NCBI GenBank assembly: GCA_938016265.1
Contig: CALLWB010000001.1
Location: 1-64,000, forward strand
Length of the DNA: 64,000 nucleotides
Source: an uncultured Saprospiraceae bacterium
Lineage (GTDB): Bacteria > Bacteroidota > Bacteroidia > Chitinophagales > Saprospiraceae
Direction of reading: 5' to 3'
Positions 41,068-45,445 of this stretch are shown here, piece by piece (the stretch's first letter is position 1; the number at the start of each line of letters is the position of its first letter). A program made the translations under genes and the position numbers. Under the pieces are notes generated by a model. That model saw only the letters and a list, made by a program, of their open reading frames with translations. It had not been told where the DNA came from and made no database searches.

Positions 41068-42132
41068 TTGATCAAAAAAATAAAATACGGCGTTTGGGCA
41101 TTCGTTTTCCTCCTCTGTTTGCCAGATATGAAGGCGCAATCTGGCGGACAAAATACCTTTGATTTTTTAAGACTTCCTCATACCGCACGTGTTGGCGGAC
41201 TAGGAGGTAGTCTGATCATGATCAGGGATGACGATGCAGCTCTTGGGTACCACAACCCGTCTTTGCTAAACGTATCAATGCACAAGCAAATCAACTTCAA
41301 CAATAGTTTTTATGTTGCTGGGATCAATCATGGATTTGTCGGTTATACTCACCATCTGGATAAATCAAAAATGACAATGTCTGGTGGCATCCAATACATT
41401 ACTTATGGGCAGTTTGATCTCACCGATCCGACAGGGCAGGTCCAGGGAGAATTTAAGCCTAGTGAATATGCATTCAATGTGGGTTTTGGTAAACAGCATA
41501 GTGACAAACTGTCTTATGGAGCCAATCTGAAAGCAATTTATTCTAAGTTTGAAATCTATAATGCTTTTGGGGCGGCTATTGATCTGGGAGCAACTTACCA
41601 AGACACGTCCAAAAATGTTTCTTTTGCAGTTACAGTAAGAAATGCAGGACTGATGTTGGATACTTATCTTGATAATGGTGAAAAAGAGCCACTACCTTTT
41701 GATGTGCAAATTGGAATAGCCAAACAACTCCGCTACCTACCTCTTCGATTTTCAATAACCTATCATGACCTACACCGTTGGAATCTAAGGTACAACGACC
41801 CGAACAGTGAAGAACCTACTTCGCTTTTTGGAGAGCAGGAAACACAAGAGAAAAAATTTGGTGTTTTCATGGACAATTTTTTCCGCCATTTTATTGTTGG
41901 CATCGAACTACTCGCTGGCAAAAAAGAAAACTTCCGTCTGCGTGTTGGTTACAACCACAATCGTAGAGCAGATCTCAATGTAGCAGGCACTCGAGGCCTT
42001 GCTGGATTCTCTGGCGGACTCGGATTAAAAATCAAACAATTTCGCTTTGAATATGGTATCGTGATGTACCATCTAGCTGGTGCCACCAATCAAATCTCCA
42101 TCGCCACCAATCTGACTGAATTTAAAAAGTAG
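41068..42132 (+). CDS. porQ: Type IX secretion system protein PorQ
   Basis: PorQ is an outer-membrane beta-barrel protein of the PorV/FadL-like group. It works with PorU, PorV and PorZ in the attachment complex that finishes T9SS cargo on the surface. The 354-residue protein has a signal peptide (ending DMKAQ, about 23), the N-terminal FDFLRLPHTARVGGLGG (30-46) followed by DDDAALGYHNPSLL, and alternating beta strands to an aromatic C-terminal region. The start is TTG: an in-frame TAG lies eight codons upstream with no ATG between. Predicted client in this window: the GH85 enzyme. Confidence 0.88.
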   Translation: MIKKIKYGVWAFVFLLCLPDMKAQSGGQNTFDFLRLPHTARVGGLGGSLIMIRDDDAALGYHNPSLLNVSMHKQINFNNSFYVAGINHGFVGYTHHLDKSKMTMSGGIQYITYGQFDLTDPTGQVQGEFKPSEYAFNVGFGKQHSDKLSYGANLKAIYSKFEIYNAFGAAIDLGATYQDTSKNVSFAVTVRNAGLMLDTYLDNGEKEPLPFDVQIGIAKQLRYLPLRFSITYHDLHRWNLRYNDPNSEEPTSLFGEQETQEKKFGVFMDNFFRHFIVGIELLAGKKENFRLRVGYNHNRRADLNVAGTRGLAGFSGGLGLKIKQFRFEYGIVMYHLAGATNQISIATNLTEFKK

Positions 42133-42250: not shown

Positions 42251-42385
42251 TCAAAAAAGAAGGTACTTGACTGTCGCTCCAATTTTTATTAGCGCCAGGA
42301 AAAACAGCACAAACATTAAACTAAATTTCACTTTATTCGGAGTAATTTCTACTCTTTTTTCCTTCGAGATTTCAGATATTGACAT
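42251..42385 (-). CDS. Possible 44-residue single-span membrane protein
   Basis: From an ATG at 42385 the minus strand encodes a basic N-terminal half (MSISEISKEKRVEI...) and one hydrophobic segment (FSLMFVLFFLALIKIGATV), then a TAA. The composition looks protein-like, unlike the neighbouring GC-rich sequence. There is no recognised family and no clear promoter, so it could be chance. Confidence 0.3.
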   Translation of the reverse strand: MSISEISKEKRVEITPNKVKFSLMFVLFFLALIKIGATVKYLLF

Positions 42386-42443
42386 AAGTAGCACCTTATT
42401 ACGGCTAAAAAATACAAGGATTTGTCCATATAGCCTGAACCGC

Positions 42444-42567
42444 CCTGGCGAGTGAAGGCGACGCAGCGGAGCGAGTAAGACAAGGGGCTGGAATGGACGA
42501 CCATCGGGAGTGCCCGAAGGGCGGAGTGCAACGAACCCATGCAAGACCCGACACCGGCAACGCCAGG
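42444..42567. repeat. GC-rich element bounded by a 7-bp inverted repeat
   Basis: CCTGGCG (42444-42450) and CGCCAGG (42561-42567) enclose about 110 nt of strikingly GC-rich sequence with the inner palindrome GCCCGAAGGGC. The surrounding DNA is AT-rich. It looks like a dispersed intergenic repeat or a structured RNA segment, but only one copy is present in this window. Confidence 0.5.
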
Positions 42568-42637
42568 TGATGGCCCATAATGAAAAAAGAAGCGAGAGGT
42601 GACAAGCGGGAAACGAGACACAACCGTATAAATTTCG

Positions 42638-42645
42638 TATTTTTG
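42638..42645 (+). promoter_or_regulatory. -7 box (TATTTTTG) 5 nt before the UbiB-like gene
   Basis: Exact TAnnTTTG match ending 5 nt before the ATG, the same close spacing as at rlmN and the YdjM-like gene. Confidence 0.5.
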
Positions 42646-42650
42646 CATCT

Positions 42651-44336
42651 ATGATGTTCAATCAGGAAATAAAAGAATTGAATCGGGGAACGGAAATCAT
42701 TCAAACACTGCTCAAGTACGGGTTTGAAGATGTTGCGAACAATTCTCCCGTCAAAATTCTGATTCCGAAAGGCCGGCGCATCGGTTGGCAAAAAGATGAA
42801 AAACTACTGGTAAAGTACTCGCGTTGGGAATTGATCAGAATGGTGTTTGAAGAACTGGGACCAACGTTTGTGAAATTGGCCCAAGTACTAAGCAATCGTA
42901 AGGACATCTTGCCGGACGAGCTCATTCATGAGTTTGAAAAACTGCAAAGCAATGTGGCCCCGTTTGGTTACGATAAAGCCAAGGAAATTGTGGAGGAGGA
43001 ACTGGGACACTCTCTGGAGAAATTGTTCAAGCATTTTAATAAAAAGCCGCTGGCTTCTGCATCTATTGGCCAAGTGCACAAGGCCGTCCTTGAAAATGGA
43101 GAACTCGTAGTCGTCAAAGTACAACGACCCGGCATCAAAAAGATCATAGAAACCGATCTGGCGATCTTAAAACGCATCGTCAATCAAGGAGAAGACTACT
43201 TGGAACGAAAGCATGGTGTCACCAATGCCATTGAATTTGTAGAGGAGTTTGAACGGACCATGCAAAAGGAATTGCTGTACACTTCGGAAGCAAGAAACAT
43301 CCGACAATTTCGGGACTTTTATAAGGAGCATGACAATTTTTATATTCCTGACGTCTACAAGGAGTTTAGTACAGAGAAGGTACTCACGCTGGAGTACTGC
43401 AAAGGCTGCAAAATCACAGACGTTGAGCAACTTGTTGATTGGGGACTGGATCCATTGGATATAGCGGAGCGGGGGATGGATATCTACATGACGCAGATGT
43501 TTGAGTACGGATATTTTCATGCAGACCCTCATCCTGGAAATATTATTATTAAGGAAGATGGCACCATTTGTCTTATTGACTTTGGAATGGTTGGCCGATT
43601 GATGAAGCGGGATAAAAATGCATTTGCATGGGCAATGGTGAGTATGGCCAGACAGGACTCCCGGTCGATGGCGCGCCAACTTCGAAATCTATCCACGTAC
43701 GACGAGATAACCAACGAAAAAGCGTTTGAAGCAGATGTCAATGAGATCATCGAAGATTTTGGGATGCTTGATGTCTCCGAGACGAATATCGCGGAGCTGG
43801 GCATGCGGATACAGCAGGTCATACATAAATACAAAATGCGGGTACCGCCGAGCTTGTTCTTGTTGCTGCGTTCGATGGCAATACTAGAGGGTATTGGCAA
43901 AACGATCCACCCCACATTCAATACCTACGACTATATAAAACCGTATGGCAACAAGCTCCTGAAAGAGGTATTCTCCAAGGAAAATGTCATGGAGGAAATG
44001 GGATATCGGGTGAGCCAGATTGATTATTTCGTTCGGAATTTCCCTCATGATATAAAAGAATTGCTAGGAAGTATTCGCAAAGGACAGTTGAATGTAGACA
44101 TCAACCATCAAGGATATGTGCCGATACTTGATAAGTTTAATGCGGCTACTAACCGTATTATTCTGACACTATTGATCATGGGTTTATTGATCTCTTCTTC
44201 GGTTGTCATGCTTGCAGATTTGCCAGAAAGTGCGAAAACAACTGGTGGCACACCAATCATCAGTCTCTTTGGATTTTTGACGGCTGCTTCGCTTGGTTTA
44301 GTTTTACTTTGGAAAATGGTGCGTAGCAAGAAATAA
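42651..44336 (+). CDS. UbiB/ABC1/AarF family atypical kinase
   Basis: The 561-residue protein has the UbiB kinase-like fold and two C-terminal membrane helices (about 497-520 and 533-556). Marks: KLAQ (75-78) where most members have KxGQ, the Ala-rich loop ASASIGQ (135-141), Lys in VVVKVQRPG (K156), ExD-type [14 protein letters not shown] (290-297) and LIDFG (D310). Such proteins support isoprenoid-quinone synthesis or lipid homeostasis, probably as ATPases. Menaquinone is the expected quinone in this phylum, so a quinone link is plausible but not shown. The next gene starts 2 nt after its stop. Confidence 0.9.
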
Positions 44337-44338
44337 GT

Positions 44339-45445
44339 ATGAAAATTTTACTTGTCGAACCTTTTCTTGGAGGAAGCCACAAACAATGGGCAGAGGCGCT
44401 CCAAAAATACACTCAACACGATATCCAAATACTAGGACTCCAGGGCCGCCACTGGAAATGGAGAATGTACGGGGGGGCAGTAACTCTTGCCCGGCAATTT
44501 CTGGAAAACAACTTTCAACCGGATTTGATTCTTGCGACTTCGATGTTGGATCTTTCTACTTTTTTGGGATTGACGAGTGCAAAATCAGCAGGGATTCCAG
44601 TTGCCCTCTATTTTCACGAAAATCAACTCAATTATCCTTGGTCAGCAGAAGATCAGGATGTGCAGGGTAGACAAGATCGACAATACAGTTTTATTAATTT
44701 TACTAGTGCCTTGGCGGCGAATAACGTCTTTTTTAACTCACAATATCACAAGGACGCCTTTCTTGGAGCGCTACCTGGTTTTTTGAAGGGATTTCCTGAT
44801 CACAAGGAGTTGGGAGCAGTGGCAAAAATTGCGGCAAAAAGTAGCGTTTTGCCCTTGGGCATAGACCTTTCAGCGTTTGATCACTACAAGGAAGCTGCTC
44901 AAAATAAACCGCCAGTTATTGTCTGGAATCATCGGTGGGAATTTGACAAAAACCCAAATGCTTTTTTTGAAATTTTGTATTTATTGAAAAATGAAGGCGT
45001 TGATTTTCAATTGGTTGTTCTTGGAGAACAGTATCGAAATTCACCAGGCATTTTTGAGGAGGCAAAAACAAAACTGTCGGATCGGATCTTGCATTTTGGT
45101 TATGCTGATTCATTCGAAGAATACGCGAAATTGTTGTGGAGTAGCGATATAGCATTGACCACTAGCAATCAGGATTTCTTTGGCGGAAGTGTTGTTGAGG
45201 CTATTTATTGCAACTGTCATCCTGTTTTGCCAAGACGGCTTGCCTATCCAGAACATATACCTGCTGATCTTCAGGAGGATTGTTTGTATTCGAATAAGGA
45301 AGAATGTTTTGCACTAATGAAAAACTTGTTATCTAATAATGGTTTTCCTTTGGATTCTTATTCTAAATATGTATCTCGGTATGATTGGTCTTTTATGAGC
45401 AAGCAATATGATCATCAATTTCAAATAATGGTTGATGAACTTTAA
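44339..45445 (+). CDS. tRNA-queuosine alpha-mannosyltransferase-like glycosyltransferase (GTDC1/DUF3524)
   Basis: The 368-residue GT-B protein matches GTDC1/QTMAN: VEPFLGGSHKQWAEAL (6-21), GRHWKWRMYGGAVTLA (36-51), YFHENQLNYPW (about 91-101), and a C-terminal GT4-like half with WNHRWEFDKNPNAFF and SNQDFFGGSVVEAIYC. The animal enzyme adds mannose to queuosine in tRNA-Asp; bacterial members are less studied, so the acceptor here is an inference. It follows the UbiB-like gene after 2 nt and is surely co-transcribed, though the functional tie is unclear. Confidence 0.82.
   Translation: MKILLVEPFLGGSHKQWAEALQKYTQHDIQILGLQGRHWKWRMYGGAVTLARQFLENNFQPDLILATSMLDLSTFLGLTSAKSAGIPVALYFHENQLNYPWSAEDQDVQGRQDRQYSFINFTSALAANNVFFNSQYHKDAFLGALPGFLKGFPDHKELGAVAKIAAKSSVLPLGIDLSAFDHYKEAAQNKPPVIVWNHRWEFDKNPNAFFEILYLLKNEGVDFQLVVLGEQYRNSPGIFEEAKTKLSDRILHFGYADSFEEYAKLLWSSDIALTTSNQDFFGGSVVEAIYCNCHPVLPRRLAYPEHIPADLQEDCLYSNKEECFALMKNLLSNNGFPLDSYSKYVSRYDWSFMSKQYDHQFQIMVDEL

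Follow-up and report, generated by a model that had tools for sequence, protein, structure and literature searches.

The window examined here (the whole 64,000-nucleotide [nt] stretch of DNA analyzed, from an uncultured Saprospiraceae bacterium) contains a GC-rich intergenic element of 149 nt at positions 42434 to 42582 on the forward strand, with a GC content of 0.638. When the whole window was scanned in 125-nt stretches at steps of 5 nt, the highest GC content was found at 42441 to 42565 (0.656, versus 0.56 for the runner-up elsewhere and a window mean of 0.400), which bears out the GC-rich block reported at this place in an earlier reading made from the letters alone (the sequence-only reading). 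Its intergenic position also held. The element lies between an open reading frame (ORF) of 354 amino acids at 41068 to 42132, for which no Pfam match was found, and an ABC1-kinase ORF at 42651 to 44336, both on the forward strand; the short ORFs that cross the block, including one of at least 100 amino acids on the strand opposite the window copy, were taken as spurious. The gene after the ABC1 kinase (44339 to 45445) matched tRNA-queuosine alpha-mannosyltransferase (Pfam QTMAN_N).

The -7 promoter motif of the Bacteroidota type is TAnnTTTG. Positions 42638 to 42646 (+), outside the element, hold what we take to be such a motif, probably serving the downstream gene. In the congeneric genome G002, the orthologue of the ABC1-kinase gene has a different upstream gene, the gap between the two lacks the element, and a similar motif again precedes the orthologue. 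A leader or riboswitch of the kinase gene is unlikely, since the putative -7 motif sits between the element and the ATG and a similar one occurs at the element-free orthologue. Most likely, the window copy rides as a passenger ahead of the kinase promoter and outside that gene's message.

Copies of the element and their conserved fold

In the 7.44-Mb genome to which the window belongs, BLAST revealed seven further copies with 80 to 85% identity. A BLAST search with one copy against 60 genomes matched this genome alone, and a structure model was therefore needed. Two covariance models were used: R1, built from the eight BLAST copies (alignment A3), and R2, a broader model built solely from copies of the window bacterium's family. 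In the window genome, R1 found 11 copies and R2 found 20 at an E value of ≤0.01 (18 of them at ≤0.001). The genome-wide search proposed in the sequence-only reading accordingly returned more copies (8 in total by BLAST and 20 by covariance model), mostly intergenic: 9 of the 11 copies with flanks overlapped no ORF of ≥100 amino acids, the other 2 being the window copy (opposite-strand ORF) and the copy at L023 (a same-strand ORF covering half of it).

In a wider search of 199 genomes of the family, R1 had matches in 20, counting the window genome; part of these matches (40, from 39 loci in 15 genera) make up alignment A4. All 20 genomes chosen for R2 were matched (18 of the 20 R1-positive genomes, with G065 and G074 omitted, plus the congeners G001 and G002), with 1 to at least 150 copies per genome, the high counts being lower bounds. 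For G081 and G175, two genomes of one genus, R2 found 192 copies in 800 kb, or 246 with a nucleotide profile added, and the nucleotide profile found 494 copies in 1.6 Mb of the pair. The copy number is low in the window genome and very high in some relatives, which carry one copy every few kilobases. The plasmid and phage collections yielded no match to the window copy, and two exact-pattern scans of named genomes, a set from which the window's own and near records may be missing, gave no hit.

Single copies folded no better than shuffled sequence (window copy, z = 0.60 with RNA and z = -0.88 with DNA parameters); because their minimum free energies were ordinary, folding one copy could not reveal structure. 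Across copies, the picture was different. The eight copies of A3 share 36 pairs, 13 of which had changes on both sides that retained pairing. In A4, with the closing helix P1' included, 90.4% of 1157 cells were paired, compared with 65.3% in shuffles, and both-side changes were found in 33 of 36 pairs; sliding the structure by 1 to 3 columns left ≤46.3% paired. Thus, of the checks that the sequence-only reading had put forward, folding was uninformative for one copy and positive across copies, and the compensatory changes between copies were present in both alignments. This covariation shows a conserved, strand-specific fold. At its core is a three-way junction in which three parts meet: the closing helix P1', which is short; P4, a long arm that ends in the cap P5; and P6, the 3' hairpin. 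Two small hairpins, P1 and P3, stand 5' of the junction. The features are as follows.

42434 to 42582 (+): whole element, matched by covariance models R1 and R2 and aligned with seven other copies from its own genome (A3)
42438 to 42453 (+): P1, 5' hairpin (AACCGCC / GGCGAGT), supported by covariation
42461 to 42476 (+): P3, small hairpin, supported by covariation
42479 to 42481 (+): P1' closing helix, 5' strand (G-C, A.G, and C-G with 42572 to 42574), compensations in relatives, imperfect here
42484 to 42499 (+): P4, 5' strand (arm resembling that of Flavo-1: GGG, G facing A, CT, GGA internal loop, ATGG, CG), supported by covariation
42512 to 42522 (+): P5, capping hairpin GCCC-GAA-GGGC with a GNA triloop, supported by covariation
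42532 to 42549 (+): P4, 3' strand (CG, CCAT, GCA internal loop, AG, A, CCC), supported by covariation
42552 to 42569 (+): P6, 3' hairpin (CACCGGC..GCCAGGTG), supported by covariation
42572 to 42574 (+): P1' closing helix, 3' strand, compensations in relatives

P1' was paired in 81.9% of its cells in A4, with the compensations in relatives read by eye; a rival partner upstream (42457 to 42459) reached 86.7%, on an alignment fitted to that rival.

The inner palindrome GCCCGAAGGGC pointed out in the sequence-only reading was recovered at 42512 to 42522. The proposed boundaries did not survive. CCTGGCG (42444 to 42450) and CGCCAGG (42561 to 42567), read as the closing ends, are both present, yet their pairing is not conserved among copies: all 7 pairs form in the window copy only, and 3 to 5 of the 7 form in the other seven A3 copies. 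Some 7-bp inverted repeat occurred in 328 of 1000 shuffles, and the two arms are a chance match in the window copy. The purine-rich stretch after about 42582 was absent from the other copies, and the conserved part stopped near 42582, not at 42620. The suggested kind of element, a dispersed repeat (REP/MITE-like) or a structured RNA, was right apart from its inverted-repeat ends; several mostly intergenic copies with compensatory changes speak against a single, unconserved sequence.

Relation to Flavo-1

Rfam files Flavo-1 (RF01705) as an sRNA gene and gives no function. In the part of the 2010 motif paper that concerns it, Flavo-1 is one table row (PMC2864571), and it is counted among the most abundant small-RNA families in a passage that states no function (PMC9029176). 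A transcriptome paper likewise assigns it none (PMC9723704). The likeness to our element lies in the P4 arm, which has an identical order of pairs, mismatch, two pairs, 3-by-3 loop, and helix. The Flavo-1 arm plan (3 bp, A.G mismatch, 2 bp, 3-by-3 GNA/GNA loop, helix) recurs at window positions 42484 to 42499 and 42532 to 42549, as compared with the model by eye and with the mismatch reversed to G.A in the window copy. Both elements are dispersed in Bacteroidota, and the window element differs in its extra 3' hairpin and its 5' hairpins.

At the RF01705 gathering score (42 bits), no match was found anywhere in the window, and an Rfam search of positions 42380 to 42660 at an E value of ≤5 gave an unrelated snoRNA family as its sole match. 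The relative at L029 matched RF01705 over P4 with 30.1 bits (cutoff, 42). Among 150 genomes of the family, 30 matched RF01705 at an E value of ≤0.1 (2 above the cutoff), the window genome being absent from the 30. Among 345 genomes of the phylum, RF01705 matched 51 at ≤1e-4 (43 above the cutoff) and R2 matched 36 at ≤1e-5. For 12 of the 18 R2 loci outside the family, RF01705 matched at the same place and on the same strand (6 above the cutoff); the remaining 6 had no match. When R2 was run on 20 strong canonical Flavo-1 loci, none was found. R2 retrieves Flavo-1 loci; against this stand the window copy without an Rfam match, the 6 unmatched loci, and the empty reverse search. We therefore take the element in the window to be a probable remote and enlarged relative of Flavo-1, linked to it via intermediates, and no member by Rfam's rule. 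The element itself is real, has structure, and is dispersed; it is probably an enlarged form of the Flavo-1 kind. No paper was found for the phrase "Flavo-1 RNA," and in the literature on Bacteroidetes, Saprospira, Flavobacterium, and REP repeats, judged by title except for parts of PMC2817692 and PMC12306157, we found no description of the element or of strand alternation on a kilobase scale.

Strand layout and turnover of copies

In relatives with many copies, neighboring copies tended to lie on opposite strands. Within the first 800 kb of G081 and G175, neighbors ≤10 kb apart alternated in 164 cases and shared a strand in 37 (102.9 alternating expected), and a fresh 400 kb of G081 gave 82 and 11 cases, respectively (47.0 alternating expected). 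None of 5000 permutations, in which doublets of <700 bp were held as units and single copies were given random strands, reached the observed alternation in either sample. G122, which belongs to another genus, had 44 alternating and 15 same-strand neighbors (29.5 alternating expected; 0 of 5000 permutations); its two samples were weaker separately (7 and 93 of 5000 permutations), and it has one run of four same-strand copies. Strand alternation in these relatives is well measured. Close doublets were oriented 5' to 5' in 53 of 54 cases (36 of 36 and 17 of 18). We also observed that 3'-to-3' pairs in G081 and G175 enclose genes in nearly all cases and that terminator-like hairpins with T runs often stand directly before the 5' end of copies in these genomes. 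A tandem array of ~70-bp units beside an element copy in G081 (about G081:C1 327594 to 328349) is absent in G175.

Copies were found on the 5' or the 3' side of genes in both orientations, and gene direction did not follow copy direction (of 150 aligned copies, 126 were classed, 23 lay over a called ORF, and 1 had no flank). Regulation tied to gene direction was unsupported among the 126 classed copies.

Turnover of copies was assessed in 40 site comparisons between G081 and G175 (20 each way, partly reciprocal). The two genomes were equal in length at 27 and different at 7, and 6 were flagged as possibly empty. Two of these six were inspected; both genomes carried the copy, and neither a clean empty site nor a target duplication was found there. 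Long flanks at the compared sites were mostly 93 to 96% identical. At 11 orthologous sites (an aligned partner was lacking for 9 of the 20 listed), the copies differed at 222 of 1059 unpaired positions and showed 37 compensated double changes; in 10 further double changes, one genome had lost the pair. Of the single changes, 20 broke a pair, 5 kept it, and 2 were between unpaired states. So many compensated changes despite such similar flanks suggest that hairpins were swapped as a whole instead of drifting base by base, although misaligned columns may inflate the count of changes.

Rearrangement breakpoints may be more frequent at copies, with 11 of 32 copy sites with both flanks mapped broken in G081, versus 1 of 26 gap interiors, and 5 of 29 copy sites broken in G175, versus 3 of 24 gap interiors; the excess is suggestive only, because doublet flanks overlap neighboring copies and the two counts are reciprocal. 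A division into conserved 3'-inward blocks and variable 5'-side gaps was seen in one direction of comparison (97% versus 79% of bases covered) and was blurred in the other (65% versus 59%), for which part of the region lay outside the sample.

A layout of this kind might reflect a function performed in place, in which the copies would be sites of chromosome organization or recombination kept by selection and the alternation would be either required or left behind by loss of segments between same-strand neighbors. The strand alternation in two genera, the sharing of most G081/G175 sites (27 of 40 comparisons), and the compensated changes at orthologous copies are consistent with such a function. 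We nevertheless regard it as quite improbable: G002 does not share the window site, and only 20 copies occur in the 7.4-Mb window genome and only 41 (RF01705 matches) in the 5.6-Mb genome G531, so there is no general need for a dense layout.

Nature of the element and comparison with known systems

The loops of the hairpins bear on whether the element acts as DNA or RNA. Triloop hairpins in copies were often of the form C-GNA-G. GNA accounted for 23 of 44 distinct triloop hairpins in A4, 78 of 142 in A5, and 5 of 12 in A6, versus 6 to 9% in shuffles; in A6, which comes mainly from G122, tetraloops prevailed (43 of 69 hairpins) and GNA triloops were few. For stems of ≥5 bp, GNA and its complement TNC numbered 72 versus 2 (of 132) in A5, 11 versus 0 (of 21) in A4, and 2 versus 0 (of 5) in A6, and in sequence outside copies, the two together made up 13 to 18%. 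The RNA equivalents of certain DNA mini-hairpins are much weaker than the DNA forms. DNA mini-hairpins, CGCGAAGCG among them, have extraordinary stability according to the relevant part of PMC10527192. The conserved pairs pointed the same way in A4, where DNA parameters recovered a fraction of 0.39 and RNA parameters 0.28 (36 of 40 rows favored DNA); the gap was small in A5 (0.29 versus 0.25) and A3 (0.32 versus 0.29), and eight tRNAs showed the opposite trend (0.76 with DNA versus 0.86 with RNA parameters). GNA triloops on one strand would suit a folded single-stranded DNA better than an RNA, although this evidence, like that of the energy parameters, is indirect.

These data weigh on the possibility of a structured noncoding RNA, in which the copies would be transcribed and act as RNA and their number would reflect RNA gene duplication. 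The strand-specific covariation with G-U pairs, the sRNA label that Rfam gives to the related Flavo-1, and the coincidence of several transcribed leaders of F. psychrophilum with Flavo-1 matches, as given in part of PMC9723704, favor it. The same part of that study places Flavo-1 matches within transcribed regions in sense and antisense alike, with many outside them, and this indifference to direction argues against an RNA, as do the hundreds of copies unrelated to gene direction, the smaller number of conserved pairs recovered with RNA parameters, and loops unlike the RNA tetraloops GNRA and UNCG, which were not enriched (0 of 15 in A4, 2 of 43 in A5, and 3 of 43 in A6). We consider an RNA rather unlikely.

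With slightly less than even confidence, we favor a nonautonomous element of the REP/MITE-like type that is kept by transposition or recombination and acts through one of its strands, folded as single-stranded DNA. The action as a folded single strand is what we infer. Once the folding strand was exposed, a trans-acting enzyme would recognize the junction and hairpins and would then copy or exchange that strand; through exchange, copies would trade hairpins with one another, and their neighbors would be reshuffled.

A Y1-type enzyme is a possible partner, judging from gene neighborhoods. Y1_Tnp genes were matched in 13 of 14 genomes. The sole Y1 gene found in G122 (L133 1091 to 2385) lies between two inverted copies that follow each other at about 1 kb, their 3' ends inward, and 5 of 11 Y1 matches in G010 and G217 lie within 1 kb of a copy. 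That the element is REP-like and cognate to a host Y1 (HUH) transposase of the IS200/IS605-RAYT kind nonetheless deserves little credence. No copy was found within up to 1.5 kb on each side of the Y1 genes of eight genomes (G000, G001, G002, G031, G081, G086, G106, and G195). The window genome, with the one Y1 transposase gene found in it, is among these eight, and its membership in the REP/RAYT class is unsupported. In G123, which carries 56 copies, Y1 gave no match. A cognate Y1 clade was not found, the Y1 proteins near copies being scattered on the tree, and the three proteins scanned were of the IS200/IS605 type, below the NCBIfam REP-transposase cutoff.

The favored reading, a mobile or recombining element acting as folded single-stranded DNA, may extend further. 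The present family would tie Flavo-1 to a larger, more variable element. Two clues, hairpin loops of the kind typical of very stable DNA and a strand order that alternates along the chromosome, invite the tentative and somewhat doubtful proposal that Flavo-1 is no RNA family but the recognizable core of a class of elements that act as folded single-stranded DNA throughout the Bacteroidota. In high-copy genomes, alternating copies would bracket gene blocks with their 3' ends inward, so that exchange between neighbors would invert or swap blocks instead of deleting them. If this were true, what is now filed as an "sRNA" family would have to be moved to the DNA elements, and it would probably help to drive genome rearrangement in a major phylum.

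MITEs and similar nonautonomous mobile elements are short, noncoding, dispersed, and mostly intergenic. Our element shares these properties but is without conserved terminal inverted repeats, the sole candidate arms being unconserved. REP and BIME elements are short, GC-rich, palindromic, intergenic, and present in many copies, and BIMEs alternate in orientation, according to the part of PMC2817692 that introduces them; the element described here is likewise short, GC-rich, palindromic, intergenic, and multicopy, and it alternates in relatives. The RAYT-type layout given there, a transposase gene flanked by two inverted copies, was found in G122 and not in the window genome or seven others, and in place of the single GC-rich palindrome with a GT(A/G)G head of the same source (PMC2817692, in part), a junction was found, with no such head in the conserved columns. 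Whereas a REP is a single palindrome, the element measures about 150 nt and contains a junction; its copies do not regularly flank a transposase, and its alternation spans genes over kilobases.
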